Assembly: GCA_016931655.1 (NCBI GenBank)
Contig: JAFGEJ010000216.1
Coordinates: 1-39,862 of the forward strand
Source of the DNA: Phycisphaerae bacterium
Lineage (GTDB): Bacteria; Planctomycetota; Phycisphaerae; SM23-33
Direction: 5' to 3'
Length of the DNA stretch: 39,862 bases
Notes under the pieces: generated by a model
The model's input: only the letters and a program-made list of their open reading frames with translations
Told to the model about the DNA's origin: nothing
Databases searched by the model: none
Shown here: positions 3,791-35,754 of the stretch, piece by piece
Numbering within the stretch: the stretch's first letter is position 1
Layout of the letters: each line of letters starts with the position of its first letter
Made by a program: the position numbers and the translations under genes

Positions 3791-6700
3791 CTACACTACT
3801 ATATTCACAAGCGAATCATTGCCAAGAGGTTTTCCCGGTCGCCAGAACCAGGAGTTACTGCGGTCGCCTATATCTATGTGGCGGATATAGCTGATATTGC
3901 CCTCGCGGTCCAGGATATGGAATCCGACACTGCCCAGGTCAGCATTGAGAATGTTTCCCCCGCCAATCTTCCCGGCTGTGAAATGCGTATCGGTGACATA
4001 TCGTGTAGCCGGGGCAGTACCGCGTAGGCCCAGGATTCGGATCAGCCAAATCTTCGCCGATTCGTTTACGAAGTCATTCCTGTCCTCGGAAAATGCGCCC
4101 TGGAACGATTTGTCCACGCCGGCGAGATAATTGCTGTTGTGGGACGCACCCAGGAATAACAGCCGGATATCACCCGTGGTTTGCAGGCGACTGTCCCGGG
4201 CTGTGCCGCGCACCAGGAACCGGCTGATCATGCCTGTGACGTTCCACTGGCTGTTGGTCAAATTGCCGGCGATATAGACCGACCCAATCGTTATCAGTCT
4301 TGGATTCGCCGATCCGCTCAGCGTCACGGTCGCGGAGAAGGTGCCGACCAATCCGGTGGTTCTGAGGTTTTGCACGGATTTCGCCTCGATCTTGCCGCCC
4401 AGCCATTGTGTTGCGATGATACTGCTGACGTTGCCCGCGACGGCTACGTTCGCTGATTGGACATTGCCCAGTCGCAACAAGCGAAGATTGGTCAGTTGGC
4501 CCACGCCGCCGTCAAGCGACCAACCGTCTACCATACCCCTGGCATAGATGCTGTAAACCTGACCGGCGATATTCCAGTTGGCGTCTTTCAAATCACCAGT
4601 GATGCAGGCGCTGGTGAGTGTATAATACCGCGCATTCTTACCTGTGAGATTCAGTTCCGCCAGGAAATCTCCCGCCGCACCGATCTTGCCGGTCGTGTAA
4701 AGCGTGCCGAGAGTGCCGGCCTGCACGTTTCCACTCAGCCATCGATTGGCAATAATGTAGCCGATATTTCCTGTCACCGCCACGTCGGCTGACTGCACAT
4801 CTCCCAGGCGCAACAAGCGAAGATTGGTCAGCTGCCCCGCCCCGCCGTTCAACGACCAGCCGTTCACTATGCCGGCGGCATAAATAGTGCTCACTTGGCC
4901 AGCAATGTTCCAGTCAGCGTTTGTCAGATTTCCTGCGACATAAGCGCTGATCAGTGTATAGCGTATCGCCCCCAAGCCGCTCAAATTCAAATTTGCCTGG
5001 AAGTTGCCATTAACCTTCGGATTTCGCCGATCCCCCGTGATTTTCAGTATGCCAATCCAGGGCGCATTAATCGAGTCAGCCTCGCTTCCGTCCGTGTCCA
5101 GCCATTCTGTAGCGATCAAAGTACGGATCGGCATTGCAGAATTGATAATCAAATCCTGCACGGAACCGAAAATCATAGACACCATTTGCCGGGCGTTAGC
5201 TGCCGGGCCGATAGTGATGTGGTGATCGTCCGCGACGTTACGAAGCCGCAATATCTGCAGATTACCTGAAATGTCAATATCACCCAGAAGATCAACATTC
5301 GTGCCGATCAGAGAATAGAGGGAGCCTTCCACGACAATATCCTCAATTGTCGTCGTGGCATACCGACTGAATATGGTCAATCGTGAACGACTTGTTGTGC
5401 CGGCAAGTATCAGCCGCATCAGATCGCAATTACCCTGATGTGCGAAATACAGCATCCCCGCGCCCGGCCCGGCCAACTGAATCGTGATGCGGTCACCACT
5501 GGCGTCGGTGTACTGGTATCGGCCACGGGCGTCGAGCTGCACCTCGTAGCCGGTGTTCAGCGTGACCGTCGCCGGCAGACTGGTCAATGCATTGCCCGGC
5601 GTGCCGGCTGGGTCGCCAGTATCCGTAACGGTATAGGTGAAACCATCCTCGCCGGTAAAATTAGCTTCGGGTGTGTAGCGGTATTGCCCCTGGCCGATGT
5701 TTTCCAATAAACCATGCCCTGGCCCGGCTGTGATATTGAAAATCAGATCACTATAATCTGTCTCAACATCCTCCCCTGCCAGATTTACTACCACCGCCTG
5801 CCCCAGTTCGATATCCAGCGACTGTCCCTGAACCGTCGGCCGATCATTGACGGCACTGACATCAACTATTTTTGTTGCAGGATCACTCCAATTCTCCCCA
5901 TCGAAGACTGAAAAAGTAATGGCGCGGGATAGGACATTAGGATTATCGCTAGTATTGACGTACGTTACAGATCGCAAGGCGTTCTCAAAAGCGGATGCAT
6001 CAGTTTGGCCATATACTCGCGAAAGAGTTAGAATACCATTCTCGGAATTATAGCTTGCGTAGATAGAACCACTGGAACCACCAGAAGAAGACCAAGTATA
6101 ATGACCCCCACTTAATACATCTTCATTTTTTATAAAATTTCCTGATATTTCGACTTTTGCTTCAAATATAGTTCTGTTTTCCGGATCATTTATATTCAAT
6201 TCAGGAGCAACGATAATTGGATTCGCGTTTTCGTTGTAAACGGAAACATCCTCTGATAAATTCAATTCAGGAGCATCGGGTTGAACTTTGTAGGAGGCTA
6301 TATTTTCATTGCTTACCCACATCCCATCTTTCCACCCACGTGCGCGCAGGATAGTGGATTTTGTCAATTCAATGGTATTTCCATCGTATATACTTGATGT
6401 GGAAGTTACGGCAGATCCGTCTGTCGTATAACGAATAATAGCTCCTTCCGTTTCACAAGATATACTCACAACAACATTATCAATGTAAGTATCAGCTACG
6501 TCAGGCGAGAAGGTTGGAGTAGCCACTTGTTCATAGATTGACAGGGATACTGGTATGCTTAATGGTTCTGCATTATTATCAACATCTCTAATAATCAGTG
6601 TGTCCGTATATATTCCGGCATCCAATGCTCCCGCGCCAAAGCTCAATATTATAGATTGTGCTGTTGTCGTTAAAGTGCCGCCGGTAAAATTTGGCAATAA

Positions 6701-9700
6701 CCAGGAAGATGAATTTTCTATTGTATAATTCAACGTTCCCAAGCTGCCGTTCCAAATATCGATTGTGGTATCGCCGGGATTTTCACCTCGACGACACTGT
6801 ACTTCAACTTCTGTGGGATTCGCGGAAATGACAGGTTGCATAACCCCAAAGGTCACAGGTATGATCAATGGGTCGCCCTCTGCATTTGTATCCGTTATTA
6901 TGATATTGGCTGTATGGTAACCATAAGACAAAGACGTTGAATCAAAATGAACCGTGATTTGTTTTTGCTCACCGTTGCTACTGCCGGTTGTGCCGTCTGA
7001 TATTATCAGCCATTCTTGATCCGTTTGGACGGCATATTCAAGCTTTCCCGTTCCTTCATTCCAGACATTAAACACAACGTCATCAGAATCGTCCGCTCCC
7101 TTAACTGTTTCGACACAAATACTATCAATTTCCGTTGCGATTTGGGGAACCACTCGCTGCCCTTCGTAGGTTACACGAAGAACAGGATGCTTGGTACCGT
7201 CAGGATCTTCCGTGGAAACGAATTCCCATTCGCCGTCATCATAATCATGTTCATCAACAACTACTTGGATTGTCTTTAGACGCAAACCATAATTTTCCCC
7301 ATTACGCCAATAATTTTCAATCCAGTCGAGAATGTCGATTGAACCGTAATCAGTTAACGTAAGTGTGCAATAAGCGTTTTCCGTAATACTATTTTTTATT
7401 TTTTCGGCATAGTTCCATTCTTCGATGTCATAAGAAGGCATTCCGCTTGTAATGGTTTCCTCATCCCAATCTGACGTGTTGCGCTGAATCTCAAGTCCAT
7501 ATCGATTGGAGGGAACCTCTTTGCAGTATAGAATCAATTCAACGCTAGTAATACGAGCACCGTCAGGAATTTGTGAGACATCAAATTTAAAAATTGCTTC
7601 TTGAAGTTTTTGGCCATCTTGATGTTCTACCTTTAGTTCTGCATAATCTCCTTTATTTCTCCGCCCATCCGTACCAAGTTTGTCAGGCGAATCTCCTTTG
7701 AGTGTTGCATCGGCTATGCAAGGCAGTGAAATCGTATACTCCACCGTTTCGTCCCAGGCGAACACAGCCTTCAGTTGTTTATCGTTCGCTCCGTCCATTG
7801 TAATGGCGACGGTGGCCTGATCGCTGAAAAATTCACCGTTAAGTTTCCATTCGACAAAATGAGCTTCGGAAGTCGGTATTGCCGATAACTGAACTTGCTG
7901 TCCAACGGAAAATTCATGTGGGCCATCGGCAAGATTCACACTACCTGGGCCGGAAGTGTCAATGTGCAATATCCGCTGGTTGGCATTGATTCTTCGGAAA
8001 TATACCTCGATCATCTGTACGGGATTATAGCCTTCTCTATTAATACAATGGCCGATAGTAATCCGAGCGGTGTTTCCTGTCACATTGTTGATGGGATACC
8101 ATCGTTCCGGTGTTTCCGTTCGGTCATAGAGCGTCTGCCAGTGATCTACTTCCCACCCATAATCCGGATAAGCAGTGAGGTACAGGACATCCCCTTCAGA
8201 ATAACGCTCAGAAGACAGTATAGCCGGCTCGATAGAGCCGCCGTTACCTGATATGGAAACACCATCGAGAGAATAGGTTCTAACTTTGATTTCTGTATCG
8301 CCTTCAAAAACCCCTCCTTCATTCACAGTGGGGCCAGTGTAGATTTCAGTTCCCAATGCGTTTCCGGCGCTATCCTTGAAGGAAAAACGATAATTATGAT
8401 CGCCAGCGGATAAGTTATTCTTCACGAATATATATGTTCCATGAGCTGAGTTGCCCGATTCCAAAACCATATTGTACGGATTGTTGTCGATATATACCTT
8501 CTTTTCAATAGGTGCCATACCGGAAGGATCGAAATAGTCAACACGATAAGCGTAACTCTGACATGTATCTCCTGAGCCCGGACTGACAGAAGGATTGGTG
8601 ATGTTAGCTCCAACGGTAACTACTGTTGAGGCAGATTCACTCCAAACACCATCATTATCTTGTGCTCTAGCGAAGAAGCGATAGCTTCCTGGTTCCCACG
8701 TTACCGTACCAAGCCAGTCGTAGGATCCTCCTGATGGATTTGTGTCCAATCCCAGGAAATTATCCTGTTCCAAATCTAAAACGCCATTATTATTAGAGTC
8801 TAGATAGAACTCAACTTGACTGATACTGCCATTTAAATCAGATGCCGAGGCCGATAATAAAAGCTGTCCGCCTTGTACAACTGGATACGGACTGCCGTAG
8901 TTGGAGAAATTAATAATATGAGGTGAGTTGATATCTGATGAAATAACAGATACTTTTTCAAGATTGCATGATACAAAGGAATATGCACTAATGCCGTCGC
9001 CCACAAAAGCATTTACAAATACATCTGAATTAAGCCTGAAAATCCAATTATAGGTAACGCCGGCTTCTAGCCATGCATTTACCTCAAAGTCAAATTGTTT
9101 ATCAATTGTTATTGGTATGCTGCTGCTAAAATAATCACCAATTTTAATCAACTTCCAAGTATCTTTAGATATTTGTAGAAATGGTATACTGCTACCTCCC
9201 CCTAGAATATCTAGTGCCATTGAAATAGTATTCTCTGCACCAATTTTAATATAATCCACAGCGCTAAGTTTGTCGACATAGATAGGATCATGCGATGATA
9301 TTGTTGTGCCGTTTCCAACAATTTCAGCCAATAATTGAATATTATATTCCGCTCCTTGCCAACTTGGAGTATAAGGAAAATCTGCGGATAATGTGTGGAC
9401 TATGCCATTAGCACTCCCTTCAAATAGAATTATATACTGTCCAGAATGTGGAACTTGAAATATATGCTTTATTCCACTAGTTACGTTTGCTCCGGCAGCA
9501 CCAACGCCTCCTGTTAAAGTATAAATCTGTTGTTCAAATTGCCCCTCTTTAAATTCAGAGTAATTGTTAATCTGATAAATAGCAGCACCTGATACCCAAT
9601 CTCCTGTGTTAGCTTCAGAATGAGGTAGCGCTAATTCAAACGGCGTTTCAAAACAGGATACTGTATTGCTTAGAAGCAATCTTGCTTCAAGGTATTCAAA

Positions 9701-9736
9701 TGAGGGTTTTATTGTATTGCCAATCGCGGTGAACAT
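3791..9736 (-). CDS. Giant multidomain secreted protein, LEPR-XLL type
   Basis: A 1,981-residue protein whose N-terminus carries LEARLLLS at residues 16-23, the LEPR-XLL-type sequence of large exported planctomycete proteins. Start ATG at 9736 has GGGAGA about 10 nt upstream. Domains by eye: an unknown beta region (30-265); an Ig-like domain (about 270-378); two divergent InlB B-type repeats (about 490-660); a DNRLRE/CBM96-like module (about 664-855); two BACON-like domains (about 862-965 and 967-1069); a chitobiase C-terminal-like domain (about 1070-1152); cadherin-like domains with VNDRP (about 1153-1397); and a C-terminal right-handed solenoid-like region to the end. The solenoid has near-identical 112-residue repeats (LTNLRLLRLG, 336 nt apart). 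There is no catalytic domain, so adhesion or carbohydrate binding at the cell surface is the likely role. DNA for the last third is much more GC-rich than the rest. Confidence 0.93.
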   Translation of the reverse strand: MFTAIGNTIKPSFEYLEARLLLSNTVSCFETPFELALPHSEANTGDWVSGAAIYQINNYSEFKEGQFEQQIYTLTGGVGAAGANVTSGIKHIFQVPHSGQYIILFEGSANGIVHTLSADFPYTPSWQGAEYNIQLLAEIVGNGTTISSHDPIYVDKLSAVDYIKIGAENTISMALDILGGGSSIPFLQISKDTWKLIKIGDYFSSSIPITIDKQFDFEVNAWLEAGVTYNWIFRLNSDVFVNAFVGDGISAYSFVSCNLEKVSVISSDINSPHIINFSNYGSPYPVVQGGQLLLSASASDLNGSISQVEFYLDSNNNGVLDLEQDNFLGLDTNPSGGSYDWLGTVTWEPGSYRFFARAQDNDGVWSESASTVVTVGANITNPSVSPGSGDTCQSYAYRVDYFDPSGMAPIEKKVYIDNNPYNMVLESGNSAHGTYIFVKNNLSAGDHNYRFSFKDSAGNALGTEIYTGPTVNEGGVFEGDTEIKVRTYSLDGVSISGNGGSIEPAILSSERYSEGDVLYLTAYPDYGWEVDHWQTLYDRTETPERWYPINNVTGNTARITIGHCINREGYNPVQMIEVYFRRINANQRILHIDTSGPGSVNLADGPHEFSVGQQVQLSAIPTSEAHFVEWKLNGEFFSDQATVAITMDGANDKQLKAVFAWDETVEYTISLPCIADATLKGDSPDKLGTDGRRNKGDYAELKVEHQDGQKLQEAIFKFDVSQIPDGARITSVELILYCKEVPSNRYGLEIQRNTSDWDEETITSGMPSYDIEEWNYAEKIKNSITENAYCTLTLTDYGSIDILDWIENYWRNGENYGLRLKTIQVVVDEHDYDDGEWEFVSTEDPDGTKHPVLRVTYEGQRVVPQIATEIDSICVETVKGADDSDDVVFNVWNEGTGKLEYAVQTDQEWLIISDGTTGSSNGEQKQITVHFDSTSLSYGYHTANIIITDTNAEGDPLIIPVTFGVMQPVISANPTEVEVQCRRGENPGDTTIDIWNGSLGTLNYTIENSSSWLLPNFTGGTLTTTAQSIILSFGAGALDAGIYTDTLIIRDVDNNAEPLSIPVSLSIYEQVATPTFSPDVADTYIDNVVVSISCETEGAIIRYTTDGSAVTSTSSIYDGNTIELTKSTILRARGWKDGMWVSNENIASYKVQPDAPELNLSEDVSVYNENANPIIVAPELNINDPENRTIFEAKVEISGNFIKNEDVLSGGHYTWSSSGGSSGSIYASYNSENGILTLSRVYGQTDASAFENALRSVTYVNTSDNPNVLSRAITFSVFDGENWSDPATKIVDVSAVNDRPTVQGQSLDIELGQAVVVNLAGEDVETDYSDLIFNITAGPGHGLLENIGQGQYRYTPEANFTGEDGFTYTVTDTGDPAGTPGNALTSLPATVTLNTGYEVQLDARGRYQYTDASGDRITIQLAGPGAGMLYFAHQGNCDLMRLILAGTTSRSRLTIFSRYATTTIEDIVVEGSLYSLIGTNVDLLGDIDISGNLQILRLRNVADDHHITIGPAANARQMVSMIFGSVQDLIINSAMPIRTLIATEWLDTDGSEADSINAPWIGILKITGDRRNPKVNGNFQANLNLSGLGAIRYTLISAYVAGNLTNADWNIAGQVSTIYAAGIVNGWSLNGGAGQLTNLRLLRLGDVQSADVAVTGNIGYIIANRWLSGNVQAGTLGTLYTTGKIGAAGDFLAELNLTGKNARYYTLTSACITGDLKDANWNIAGQVYSIYARGMVDGWSLDGGVGQLTNLRLLRLGNVQSANVAVAGNVSSIIATQWLGGKIEAKSVQNLRTTGLVGTFSATVTLSGSANPRLITIGSVYIAGNLTNSQWNVTGMISRFLVRGTARDSRLQTTGDIRLLFLGASHNSNYLAGVDKSFQGAFSEDRNDFVNESAKIWLIRILGLRGTAPATRYVTDTHFTAGKIGGGNILNADLGSVGFHILDREGNISYIRHIDIGDRSNSWFWRPGKPLGNDSLVNIVV
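4464..4835 (-). repeat. Direct repeat inside the giant gene (period 336 nt)
   Basis: Two copies of a 336-nt unit encode the same solenoid segment (NWNIAGQV...GWSL-G-G-GQLTNLRLLRLG). The marker gcgaagattg occurs at 4481 and again at 4817. A third, more diverged unit follows near the C-terminus of the protein. Confidence 0.7.
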
Positions 9737-18930: not shown

Positions 18931-19050
<120 letters not shown>

Positions 19051-19060
19051 AATATCCGGA

Positions 19061-20491
19061 TTAACTCTCGGCGGTTACTTCCACCACGCGCCGGGGCGGT
19101 AAGTGCAGGGCCACGCCGAGGGCGTCCTCGGCGGCTTCCTTTACGCCTTCGCTTAAGGTCGGGTGGGCGAAGATCATCTCCGCCAGGTCGCTCGCCGTGC
19201 CTTTTTGGCTCATCACCGCCGCCGCGGCGTGGATCATTTCCGTTGCATTATGGCCGAGGATGTGCACGCCCAGCAATTCGTCCGTTTCGCGGTGGCGAAT
19301 CACCTTTACGAACCCGTCCGTGTGCTCGGCCGCCATCGCCTTGCCGAGATACCCCAGCGGGAACGTGCCGACGGCGATGGGCAAGGCCTTCTCCGTCGCC
19401 CGCTGCTCGGTCACACCGACACCGGCGATTTCGGGGAAGGTGTACACCGCCCAGGGGATCGGTTTGTCGAACGAAACGTCCTGGCCGAGGGCGTTTTGAG
19501 CGGCGACGACGCCCTGGGCGCTGGCGGCGTGGGCGAGCAAAGCTCGGCCGTTCGCGTCGCCAATGCAATACACGCCCATCGCGGAGGTTTCCATTTTGTC
19601 GTTCACGGGGATGAATCCGCGATTCGTCGTGATACCCACGGATTCCAGTCCCACGTCGTCCGTTGCGGGCCGCCGGCCTGTCGCCACGAGCACACGGTCG
19701 GCTTCGATGGTCTCCCCGCTGGACAGGACGGCCTTGACGCCCGCCTTCGTCACGTCGAGCGATTCGACCTTCGTGCCGACGTGCACGGCTACGCCTCGTT
19801 TTTTCAGCACGCCCGCCATTGCGTCGGCAAGTTCGGCGTCCATTTCCGGCAGCAGGCGGGGCATCATCTCCACGAGGGTCACGTCCACGCCCAGCGGCTG
19901 CATCATGCATGCGAACTCACAGCCGATCACGCCGCCGCCGACAAGGATGAGTTTTTTTGGCAAATCTTTCCAGTGCAGCGATTCGTCGGACGTACAGACC
20001 CGCGTGGGATCGTCAGGCCAGCCGGGGATGCGCGCCGGCGTCGAGCCGACAGCCAGGATTACCTTGCCGGCGGCGAGTTCTTCGATTTTTCCGTCCGCGC
20101 CCGTGACCGTTACCTTGCCCGCACCAGCCAGTCGTCCAACGCCCCGGAACGTCGCGACCTTCCGCGCGGCGAACAGGCCCTTCACGCCGCCGCGAAGCTT
20201 GGCGATGACTTTGTCCTTGCGTTTCTGGACGGCGGCCCAGTCGAAGGACGCCTTGCCGTCGACCGACACGCCGAGATGTTTCGCTTCCTCAATGGTGTGC
20301 AACAACTCCGCCGTCGCCAGCAGGGCCTTGGAGGGAATGCAGCCGAAGTTCAGACACGTCCCGCCGAAGAACGGCTGCTTCTCGACGACGGCGACGCTCG
20401 CGCCCAACTGGGCGGCCTTGAGGGCCGCCACGTACCCGCCCGGCCCGGAACCGATCACGACAATGTCAAAAGAATCATATTGCTTCGTCAT
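19061..20491 (-). CDS. lpdA: Dihydrolipoamide dehydrogenase (E3)
   Basis: A 476-residue flavoprotein disulfide reductase that reoxidises dihydrolipoyl groups with NAD+. The FAD motif GSGPGG is at residues 14-19, the redox-active pair is C46 and C51 in GGTCLNFGCIPSKALL, the NAD motif is GGGVIGCE, and the C-terminal His/Glu pair is in FAHPTLSE. Length and order match Lpd. ATG at 20491 has AGGATG about 10 nt upstream. It is encoded in the same direction as the E2 gene but separated from it by the AAA ATPase gene, whose stop is 25 nt upstream. It should serve as E3 for the TPP complex in this cluster. Confidence 0.96.
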   Translation of the reverse strand: MTKQYDSFDIVVIGSGPGGYVAALKAAQLGASVAVVEKQPFFGGTCLNFGCIPSKALLATAELLHTIEEAKHLGVSVDGKASFDWAAVQKRKDKVIAKLRGGVKGLFAARKVATFRGVGRLAGAGKVTVTGADGKIEELAAGKVILAVGSTPARIPGWPDDPTRVCTSDESLHWKDLPKKLILVGGGVIGCEFACMMQPLGVDVTLVEMMPRLLPEMDAELADAMAGVLKKRGVAVHVGTKVESLDVTKAGVKAVLSSGETIEADRVLVATGRRPATDDVGLESVGITTNRGFIPVNDKMETSAMGVYCIGDANGRALLAHAASAQGVVAAQNALGQDVSFDKPIPWAVYTFPEIAGVGVTEQRATEKALPIAVGTFPLGYLGKAMAAEHTDGFVKVIRHRETDELLGVHILGHNATEMIHAAAAVMSQKGTASDLAEMIFAHPTLSEGVKEAAEDALGVALHLPPRRVVEVTAES

Positions 20492-20516: not shown

Positions 20517-21746
20517 TTAGAAAAGACTGGGCTGGTTATCATTCTCCTGCTGTCGCTTGATAAATTCACCCAGTAAGGGAACGGCAAACGAATATTTTCC
20601 GTGTCGATTTTTAAAGATCAACCCAGCCTCCGCCAGGGCGGCCAATACCAAGCTCACGTTGCTGCTGCGGAATGGTTTTTCCGGGCCGGACTTTGATTGC
20701 TCAACAATTTCCTGGATGGTAAACTCCGTGTCACAATTCGGGAGTGTTGAAATCACAATCATAAGATCACGTTGCCGATCCGTAGCTCGCGACCAACGAC
20801 CCGCAAAGAAATCCGTGTCCAGTTTCCGGCAAATCTCCGCGATCGGAACCGCCGCCTGTCTCCCCTCCCGCATTCGCTGAATCCAGACATCGTAGACTTC
20901 CCGACAAATAAATTGAATAAAATACGGATAACCACCGGAAACTTGGATTACGGTATTTACGGAGGTATCATTAAATCGAACCCGACAGTTTTCTTTTTCG
21001 ATCGGTTTCTTGATCGCTTCCCGGCTTTGTTCCGGGGTTAATCGGTCGAGAAATACGACACGAAACATTCGCTCAGAGTATGTTCTGGCTTCGACAAGTT
21101 TGGGAAACAAAGTTGGCAAACCAGTCAACGCCAGCATGAATGGAATGTTTTTGCGTTGAATAGACTGAAATACATCCAGCAACAACGAAAGAGGATACTG
21201 TTCCTTCTCCGCGTGGTCGGAAAGATTCTGTGCTTCATCATAGGCGAAAACAATTCCCCCGGATTTCTTGCTTCGCATGGCTTGCCATACGATTTCCAGA
21301 ACACACTTTAATTTGTCCGAAACAAGTCCAGGCGTCGCGTTAAAAATGCTCCGTAAACTCTGATAATCCAGGACATAATCCCGGCGTTCCACGTCGGGAC
21401 GAAATCCCATACCCTGCACGGTTTGGCTTTGAACGACCCAATTCGACGTGATCACAGCCAGGTCCGTAATCAAACGCTCCGCGATCTTCTCCTCGCTGAT
21501 ACTCGTGGACTCGGACATATCCGTTCCAACCCATTGCCAGCCTCGTTCCTGCGCGAGCGGCTTAAAGGTTTCCAACAACACCGTTTTGCCCACACCGCGC
21601 AGACCGGTAAGAACAAGATTTTCGAGAATTGTCTCCTGTTCCAGAAGGCGAAGAAATTCCTCGCGTTCTTTCTCACGTCCCGCCAGATAGGGAGGCATGT
21701 GGCCGGCGCCGGGACGAAACGGATTTTTGAAGTCAGTGATATTCAT
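20517..21746 (-). CDS. AAA-family ATPase with winged-helix tail, inserted in the operon
   Basis: A 409-residue P-loop ATPase of the type often annotated as ATP-binding protein or archaeal-type AAA ATPase. Walker A is GLRGVGKT at 48-55, Walker B is GIVFAYDEAQ at about 163-172, an arginine-rich sensor region follows (AEARTYSERMFRVVFLDRL-like), and the C-terminal 110 residues look like a winged helix (IQEIVEQS...SSNVSLVLAALAEAGLI). ATG at 21746 has GGGAG 8 nt upstream. Its composition is AT-richer than the flanking E2 and E3 genes, and it carries its own array of four palindromes directly upstream. It has no obvious role in sugar breakdown. I read it as an independent, probably mobile or selfish, gene lodged between E2 and E3; an alternative is a dedicated regulator or chaperone of the cluster. 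Confidence 0.9.
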   Translation of the reverse strand: MNITDFKNPFRPGAGHMPPYLAGREKEREEFLRLLEQETILENLVLTGLRGVGKTVLLETFKPLAQERGWQWVGTDMSESTSISEEKIAERLITDLAVITSNWVVQSQTVQGMGFRPDVERRDYVLDYQSLRSIFNATPGLVSDKLKCVLEIVWQAMRSKKSGGIVFAYDEAQNLSDHAEKEQYPLSLLLDVFQSIQRKNIPFMLALTGLPTLFPKLVEARTYSERMFRVVFLDRLTPEQSREAIKKPIEKENCRVRFNDTSVNTVIQVSGGYPYFIQFICREVYDVWIQRMREGRQAAVPIAEICRKLDTDFFAGRWSRATDRQRDLMIVISTLPNCDTEFTIQEIVEQSKSGPEKPFRSSNVSLVLAALAEAGLIFKNRHGKYSFAVPLLGEFIKRQQENDNQPSLF

Positions 21747-21764
21747 ACTTATTCTCCCGAAGTA

Positions 21765-21828
21765 CTAAATTTAGCCATTTAACTAAATTTAGCTCTTCAA
21801 CTAAAATTAGTATATTTGCCAAATTTAG
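21765..21828. promoter_or_regulatory. Four palindromes with exact 18-bp spacing
   Basis: CTAAATTTAG occurs at 21765-21774 and 21783-21792, CTAAAATTAG at 21801-21810, and CCAAATTTAG at 21819-21828. The starts are exactly 18 bp apart. The array begins 18 bp upstream of the ATPase start codon, in a very AT-rich gap. It fits an operator or centromere-like site bound by several copies of one protein, plausibly the ATPase with its winged-helix domain. Confidence 0.75.
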
Positions 21829-21901
21829 CAAAGTCAATGCATTTCTGTTATTTTCTTTGTGGGAGAATTTTTAATTTTATTATTCATTATTTTATAATTA
21901 G

Positions 21902-23473
21902 TTATGACAATTCCATAACAGAGGGATTTTCGAGCAGTTCTTTCAGACGGGCCAGGAATTTGGCCGCTTCCAGGCCGTCGATCACGCGATGGTCGCAACT
22001 GAGCGTCAGTGTCATCCGGCGGGCCGGGAGAATCGCACCGTTTTTGACGGCTACGTCTTCGCGGACGGCCCCGACGGCGAGGATGGCTGCTTCGGGCGGA
22101 TTGATGATCGCGCTGAATCGCTCCACGCCGAACATGCCCAGGTTGCTGATCGTGAAGACGCCCTGTCCGAGGCCTTCGATTTTGCCCGCCCGGGCGCGTT
22201 CGGCGATGCGTCGCGTCTCCGCGCCGACTTGTTGCAGGTTCATGCGGTCGGTGGCGACGACCACGGGCACGACCAGCCCGTCGTCCATGCCAACCGCCAC
22301 GCCGATGTTGGCCGTCGGGAAGGTGACAAATTCCTCGCCGTCCACGCGGCTGCGGAAGCGGGGGAATTCCGCGATCGCCCGCCCGCAGGCCAGCACCACC
22401 ACGTCGTTGACGCTGCACGGATACTGGGCCTTCGCGGAGCGGTAATACGACATCAGCGGTTCGGCGTCGATGGTCCTTTCAATATAGAAATGCGGAATGT
22501 TCTGCTTGCTCGCCAGCAGGTTTTTCGCGATGGCTTTGCGCATCGGGCTCATTTTCTCGCGGGTTTTCTCTCCGATCGGCCCTGTCGAGGCCGGTGCGGG
22601 TTGGACGGCCGGCCTGGCGGCTGACCCCGCGGCAGAAACATCGGTAGAGACGATTCGGCCGCCCGGTCCGCTGCCGACACCGACGGCGGCCAAGTCCACG
22701 CCCTGCTGCATGGCAAGACGTCGGGCGGCAGGGGAGGCCTTCACTCGGCCGGCCGACGAGACGGCGGGTGTGGCCGTGGTGGGCGGTGCAACCGGGGGCG
22801 CTGGAGCAACGGGCGGAGGTGCGGCGGCGGATTCGTCCTTCTTTTCAGCAGGCTGCTCTTTGGCGTTTTGGGTATTTTTGGAAAATTCTTTAATAAACGC
22901 GTCCACGTCGGCGGCGCTGTCGGCCAGGTAGGCCACGGGCTTGAGCACATCGATACTGTCGCCTTCCGCGACCACGATGCGGGCGAGCTTGCCGGCGTCG
23001 GTGGCTTCGACCTCGACGGCGGCCTTGTCGGTCTCGACCTCGAAGATCACCTGGCCGACTTCAACGGCGTCGCCCTCGGCGACGTGCCACTTGACCACTG
23101 TGCCTTCTTCCATGGTATTGCTGGCCTGGGGCATCAGCACCGGAATCACCGGGCCTTTCGGACTGCTCATCGGTTTCTCCTTGCTCGTTGTCGTTGGATC
23201 GGCGTGGTTTTTCCCGTCGGCATGGGCGTCCTTTTTGGATATGTCCGCCAGCGACCCGCCGGCGGGGACGGTTTGCCCCGCTTCGACCAGCCGGCGCACC
23301 AGCGAACCAGCCTCGGGCGCCTTTACGAGGATCGTTGCGCGCACACCGGCCAGTTCCACCAGCGCATCGCCTTTCTCAAACACATCGCCGGGGTTTTTCC
23401 GCCAGCGAATTACCGTCGCGTCGGGCGTGCAGTCTTCCGACCGGGGGAATCTGATTGTTTGCGTCATGGCCAT
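21902..23473 (-). CDS. Dihydrolipoyl acyltransferase (E2), two lipoyl-type domains
   Basis: A 523-residue 2-oxoacid/acetoin dehydrogenase E2. Order: lipoyl-like domain 1 (about 5-80), linker, lipoyl domain 2 (about 109-182) with lipoylation Lys K150 in EVETDKAAVE, an Ala/Pro linker, a peripheral subunit-binding domain (about 235-275, ASPAARRLA...GGRIVSTDV), and the catalytic domain with H495 and D499 in LSCDHRVIDG. It moves the acyl group from E1-bound thiamine diphosphate to CoA. In domain 1 the aligned lysine is R45, so that domain cannot be lipoylated. The ATG at 23473 has a weak ribosome site, whereas an in-frame ATG at 23170 (M102) has AAGGAG at the ideal distance. It is the first gene of the minus arm, divergent from the DeoR gene. 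Confidence 0.94.
   Translation of the reverse strand: MAMTQTIRFPRSEDCTPDATVIRWRKNPGDVFEKGDALVELAGVRATILVKAPEAGSLVRRLVEAGQTVPAGGSLADISKKDAHADGKNHADPTTTSKEKPMSSPKGPVIPVLMPQASNTMEEGTVVKWHVAEGDAVEVGQVIFEVETDKAAVEVEATDAGKLARIVVAEGDSIDVLKPVAYLADSAADVDAFIKEFSKNTQNAKEQPAEKKDESAAAPPPVAPAPPVAPPTTATPAVSSAGRVKASPAARRLAMQQGVDLAAVGVGSGPGGRIVSTDVSAAGSAARPAVQPAPASTGPIGEKTREKMSPMRKAIAKNLLASKQNIPHFYIERTIDAEPLMSYYRSAKAQYPCSVNDVVVLACGRAIAEFPRFRSRVDGEEFVTFPTANIGVAVGMDDGLVVPVVVATDRMNLQQVGAETRRIAERARAGKIEGLGQGVFTISNLGMFGVERFSAIINPPEAAILAVGAVREDVAVKNGAILPARRMTLTLSCDHRVIDGLEAAKFLARLKELLENPSVMELS
23170..23182 (-). promoter_or_regulatory. Internal ribosome binding site and start in the E2 gene
   Basis: AAGGAG (complement of 23177-23182) is followed by 6 nt and an in-frame ATG (23168-23170). 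Initiation here would give a 422-residue E2 with a single functional lipoyl domain. It is the best Shine-Dalgarno in the gene, better than the one before the first ATG. Confidence 0.6.
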
Positions 23474-35688: not shown

Positions 35689-35754
35689 ACCACAGAGACA
35701 CAGAGAGCACAGAGAAAACCTTAAGAATTATGTCTTTCTCTGTGGCTCTGTGGT
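35689..35754. repeat. CACAGAG palindromic repeat, copy 2
   Basis: accacagagacacagagagc then acagagaaa on the left pairs with tttctctgtggctctgtggt on the right. It lies 42 nt upstream of the pheT start codon. Confidence 0.75.

Follow-up and report, generated by a model that had tools for sequence, protein, structure and literature searches.

Several described systems resemble parts of the locus analysed here, a gene for an AAA+ ATPase and its phased palindromes in a window (the whole stretch of DNA analysed) of 39,862 nt. The ATPase matches phrog_6841 over its length (5.6e-74), a family for which PHROGs lists no function, operator or cellular distribution. It shares its AAA+ core, lid and C-terminal winged helix with archaeal Orc1/Cdc6, but carries GGYPYF where that initiator clade has its sensor-2 motif, and its array is read as a promoter operator. 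The xGRExE start, the GxP after the AAA core, the winged helix and weak Pfam matches recall SSO1545/ATPase_2 and STAND proteins, whereas the ATPase stays below the Pfam cut-offs for these, lacks sensor repeats and an effector domain, and has its own phased operator. In organisation, it is similar to prophage morons, being a single gene under an operator and promoter of its own, which sits in a slot flanked by the post-Q gene and terminase and can be exchanged for an anti-restriction gene; unlike them, it also occurs free in the chromosomes of unrelated phyla, with distant relatives on plasmids. The product would repress its own promoter through tandem palindromes, as in self-repressing plasmid and toxin-antitoxin operons, but with one gene only and an AAA+ ATPase as the putative repressor. 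Regulation by self-repression is already known, and the ATPase clade has been recorded only as a phage family without a name; the open-access literature searched yielded no relevant report of the operator site or the ATPase family, or of the two combined and conserved across phyla.

Our comparison of the locus with its relatives points to a self-repressed, horizontally mobile one-gene cassette made up of the ATPase, its own promoter and a phased operator, a reading based on sequence to which we assign a probability of about 0.72. An AAA+ ATPase of Orc1/Cdc6-STAND type with a C-terminal winged helix would travel with its promoter and operator (Table 1).

Table 1. Features of the ATPase locus, in window coordinates
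Feature	Position	Strand	Basis or remark
E3 (dihydrolipoamide dehydrogenase) gene	19061..20491	-	25 nt downstream of ATPase stop
AAA+ ATPase gene, 409 aa, phrog_6841 family	20517..21746	-	ORF, profile matches and fold
C-terminal QPSLF, beta-clamp-binding-type motif Qxx[LMI]F	20520..20534	-	
C-terminal winged helix (predicted), about residues 323-390, basic wing KNRHGKY	20577..20780	-	AF2 secondary structure
Walker B region AYDEAQ, residues 168-173	21228..21245	-	D170 E171 Q173 invariant in 21 homologues
Walker A GLRGVGKT, residues 48-55	21582..21605	-	G48 L49 R50 G51 G53 K54 T55 invariant in 21 homologues
Operator palindrome CTAAATTTAG	21765..21774	.	exact
Operator palindrome CTAAATTTAG	21783..21792	.	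exact
Operator palindrome CTAAAATTAG	21801..21810	.	1 mismatch, overlaps -10
Operator palindrome CCAAATTTAG	21819..21828	.	1 mismatch, within -35/-10 spacer
ATPase promoter TTGACT-17-TATACT	21809..21837	-	consensus scan 10/12
E2 (acyltransferase) gene, neighbour upstream of ATPase	21902..23473	-	E3 directly next in ATPase-free related clusters

Structure prediction on the window and locus proteins gave an AlphaFold2 model of the ATPase with pLDDT 80, pTM 0.73 and an uncertain domain orientation (rmsd 8-13 A), including the winged helix that the earlier note had proposed. Archaeal Orc1/Cdc6 structures occupied Foldseek ranks 1, 2 and 4 in the PDB (2qby_A, 1.5e-10; 2v1u_A, 4.1e-10), at 13-16% identity and a TM of about 0.45, with SSO1545 (2fna, TMq 0.52) and then plant NLRs among the further matches. 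Pfam matches above cut-off were AAA_16 (2.6e-9) and AAA_22 (2.6e-6), while ATPase_2 (25.5 vs 33.2 bits) and nSTAND1 (18 vs 27.1) stayed below theirs. The motifs AGREKE, GLRGVGKT and SGGYPYF are conserved among the homologues; a GRExE N-terminal motif, a P-loop and a GxP replacing the sensor-2 Arg form the STAND/ATPase_2 signature, and the GxP of GGYPYF, standing where Orc1 has its sensor-2 motif, places the ATPase nearer the STAND/ATPase_2 side. The protein ends about 20 residues past the winged helix. STAND winged helices are not necessarily DNA-binding; a basic wing (K/R-N-R-x-G-K/R-Y) occurs in all members of the close clade of homologues and in none of a distant one. A Qxx[LMI]F C-terminus was found in 5/26 close homologues from about four lineages, against 0.47 expected and a level reached by 0/5000 shuffles; its lack in most close homologues, L001 included (that of the same-genus genome G645 ends GLSSLF), makes it an accessory feature at best.

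The array consists of four 10-bp palindromes spanning 21765-21828 at intervals of 18/18/18 bp, confirming the exact phase and the position 5' of the ATPase that the earlier note had reported for an interval (20517-21901) covering the ATPase gene and the intergenic region. One palindrome falls in the promoter spacer, one over the -10 and two in the early transcribed region, and both promoter hexamers and their spacing are identical in the same-genus homologue. No other site in the 39.9-kb window matches the palindrome with 0-1 mismatches, and single 2-mismatch matches occur at chance level (10 observed vs 9.85 expected), so that the phasing is the informative feature of the array. Pairs spaced by 18 bp (<=3 mismatches) were confined to this locus in the 2.8-Mb genome; as a rough estimate, chance alone would give 0.1-0.5 of them per 3 Mb when AT is 50-60%.

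Close homologues of the ATPase, at 50-90% identity, come from Planctomycetota, Nitrospirota and viral contigs (phages or prophages), the latter including a group of near relatives among prophage contigs, flanked by sequence that matches Acinetobacter phages. Repeating the viral scan with a broader alignment recovered this close set again and added two distant sequences; the search of phage records with the ATPase gave a single match (27%), and nothing came from scanning viral sequences with either the diverged L024 protein or the plasmid protein L016. The upstream regions of nearly all close homologues carry the 18-bp motif. When consensus pairs were scored without alignment at each spacing from 10 to 40 in 24 non-redundant promoters, 18 was the best spacing in 17.5 of them (ties shared), and pairs at 18 scored 17.0 on average, compared with 12-14 for the remaining spacings and about 11 for dinucleotide shuffles; as the scoring consensus came from the window, the sequence match is biased towards it, whereas the choice of spacing is unbiased. 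Three close homologues (L021, L044 and L046) have degenerate 18-bp pairs only. All 13 carrier genomes or viral records scanned have an 18-bp pair (<=3 mismatches) at the ATPase only, once or as one contiguous array, with 0 or 1 matches to the backwards pattern that served as control, and the pair is absent from 5/5 relatives without a known close-clade ATPase. A scan of 2.9 million viral contigs gave only one exact CTAAATTTAG-N8-CTAAATTTAG pair, within the late operon of a phage on a 5-kb contig without an ATPase (L091:4261-4288); this single case could be a chance match, belong to an ATPase copy far away or serve as a decoy.

The sequence of the site changes together with the ATPase. Upstream of a 50% identical homologue (G339), the site is CATAATCTTATG-N6-CATAAGATTATG, still 18 bp from start to start, and occurs once in the 6.4-Mb genome, in which no CTAAATTTAG pair was found. 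The distant clade (26-31% identical; plasmids of Rhodococcus, Arthrobacter, Clavibacter and Pantoea, and some Nitrospirota genomes) showed no 18-bp palindromes upstream of its ATPases. In its promoters, YTAD half-sites recur in a phase of 10 and 20 bp, with 15 half-site pairs at 10 bp vs 2.1 expected and an autocorrelation reached by no shuffle, in a test of 14 sequences of which some are related and which included the promoter hexamers. TATAG-like half-sites also recur every 10 bp at the promoters of plasmid-borne distant ATPases from Rhodococcus, Arthrobacter, Gordonia and others (L016, L110-L115). As far as sequence comparison can establish it, the array was shown to be a dedicated site with conserved spacing that co-varies with the ATPase. 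This co-variation, the phased half-sites of the distant clade and the distribution of the basic wing together suggest that the ATPase itself reads the array.

The ATPase gene lies within an operon for sugar metabolism, and its region has 42-53% GC compared with 62-67% in the flanks. It sits between E2 and E3, as the earlier note had described. Comparison of this junction in relatives revealed E2 and E3 no more than 200 nt apart in eight related clusters (L054, L055, L056, L060, L062, L065, L066 and L067) and the ATPase between them in three, those of its own genome, of G645 and of G663, the GSL.Bin20 MAG of L001. As most related clusters have E2 next to E3, the ATPase is best explained as an insertion. 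The ATPases of these three genomes group together (support 86/91), and the E2 tree is too weak to separate the number of events behind the G000/G645 and G663 insertions. Across the wider ATPase tree, Planctomycetota, Nitrospirota and viral contigs are intermixed, and close-clade members were present in 6/392 Planctomycetota genomes. With the ATPase not constant at E2-E3 and the motif present at other homologues, the idea of a self-contained unit that spreads by insertion, comprising an ATPase with a winged helix and its own putative operator, gains support.

The prophages provide a view of the unit itself. Two otherwise unlike Acinetobacter prophage backbones have in common a 1.33-kb operator-plus-gene block (85% identity) that begins 92 bp 5' of the start codon and ends shortly after the stop. 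The flanks match Vieuvirus B1251 at 92-94%, and its slot holds a Lar-like restriction-alleviation gene and no ATPase. In Acinetobacter Vieuvirus-like prophages, the region between the post-Q gene and terminase is a variable slot, with the ATPase cassette in one (L030:4781-6835) and the Lar-like anti-restriction gene in another (L128:1361-2003). As in a moron-like cassette, the promoter and operator move with the gene, both in the common prophage block and in 13/13 carriers. No transposase and no recognisable ends were found for the cassette. A same-strand gene often directly follows the ATPase 3', such as E3 here or mutS with a 4-nt overlap in L006 and L007, and the cassette promoter may therefore drive the next gene too; at its own locus, the cassette inserted between E2 and E3 probably supplies a promoter to E3, which is probably co-transcribed with the ATPase.

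Given the position of the site, its uniqueness and its co-variation with the ATPase, the most fitting interpretation of the array is a dedicated operator that evolves with the ATPase and serves self-repression. ATPase subunits would bind it cooperatively through their winged helices, with one dimer per 18 bp and about 9 bp per subunit, and the bound protein would cover the -35 and -10 and repress its own gene until released by its ATP state or by a signal. The position over the promoter would also be consistent with a host transcription factor that binds the array and controls the ATPase among other genes, with no DNA binding by the ATPase itself, all the more as contact between ATPase and DNA is deduced from sequence. 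Such a factor is nevertheless unlikely, since the array is single in 13/13 genomes and absent in relatives without the ATPase, the same site recurs across Planctomycetota, Nitrospirota and Acinetobacter prophages, its sequence shifts together with the ATPase, and no regulator gene is conserved in linkage.

Other readings assign the array a role outside transcription. The nearest solved folds are archaeal Orc1/Cdc6 on origin DNA, archaeal origins frequently adjoin a cdc6 gene, and the C-terminal motif is of clamp type, all of which would suit an Orc1-like initiator with the array as its iteron set, in a relic or active replicon. This is quite improbable, however, for an array on a core promoter and not in a separate AT-rich unwinding region, beside a chromosomal, single-copy ATPase in operons, with GxP replacing the Orc1 sensor-2 motif and no other replication genes conserved nearby. 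An AAA_22 match and a TnsC structure at Foldseek rank 34 might instead indicate the remnant of a transposition helper (TnsC/TniB/IstB-like) with the array as a transposon end, but the absence of a conserved transposase or integrase near 26 loci and an array on the promoter side only make this very improbable; no paired inverted repeats were noticed at either end of the cassette when the prophages were compared. The partition-like site considered in the earlier note did not hold: direct phased repeats beside an ATPase gene do recall plasmid par loci, and distant homologues are plasmid-borne, but a centromere served by a ParA-like motor is scarcely credible where the fold is AAA_16/AAA_22 and not the deviant Walker type of ParA, the array lies across the core promoter as a solitary copy in each genome, the carriers being chromosomes and prophages that lack partition genes, and a ParB partner is absent. 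The origin, partition and transposon readings are left unsupported by the lack of their defining partners.

What the proposed self-repressed cassette does for its carriers can be approached through its neighbours. All-against-all ORF comparison around 26 loci identified no conserved partner gene, save in close-kin pairs; kinship explains E1/E2/E3, mutS in two Planctomycetota MAGs and restriction-modification (R-M) genes in Nitrospirota. Conflict-type neighbours at some loci include Eco57I-type R-M, a PDC-M36A candidate, a ResIII helicase, HigB and PemK/MazF toxins and a phage capsid gene, and those at other loci are housekeeping genes (mutS, uvrC, metH, E2/E3). Among the PADLOC 2.0.0 defence profiles, the window ATPase had no match better than 0.028, its close homologues had none and distant homologues had weak P-loop matches only. 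For a family that may be selfish or defence-like, as the earlier note suggested, the prophage carriers, the R-M and toxin-antitoxin neighbours and the place in a phage slot that elsewhere holds an anti-restriction gene speak in favour; no defence library recognised the protein, and it has neither a transposase nor recognisable ends. From this context, our preferred guess, the least certain part of the reading and held tentatively at somewhat less than even odds, is that the cassette is phage or plasmid cargo in inter-element conflict, perhaps with a link to the replication clamp in some lineages; alternatively, it might be a sensor that is associated with replication and linked to the beta clamp. 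A further and doubtful extension would be a new class of mobile AAA+ DNA-surveillance proteins, in which Orc1/STAND-type subunits form a phased filament on their own promoter at 9-10 bp per subunit, some copies are tethered to the clamp, and phage or plasmid replication switches their state, so that filament repression would also be the state in which a defence or replication sensor rests.

If the reading as a self-repressed cassette is true, an Orc1/STAND-like AAA+ protein would act as its own repressor in unrelated phyla. A widespread uncharacterised family of phage and bacterial ATPases (phrog_6841 and relatives) gains a precise, testable DNA target, and the putative operator could serve as a direct assay for the roles of ATP state and winged helix and as a handle on the signal that releases repression.

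Some observations stand apart from this reading. In two Planctomycetota MAGs, the start of mutS overlaps the ATPase gene by 4 nt (L006:6242-8866 and L007:6257-8872), and mutL lies 1.7 kb downstream in L003, which might reflect a link to mismatch repair or coincidence. Elsewhere in the window, a 1981-aa ORF (3791-9736) contains many repeat-like extracellular segments, and short TCTCTGTG / CACAGAGA repeats, possibly a dispersed small genome repeat, occur in opposite orientation in two intergenic regions (19022-19046 and 35691-35753).
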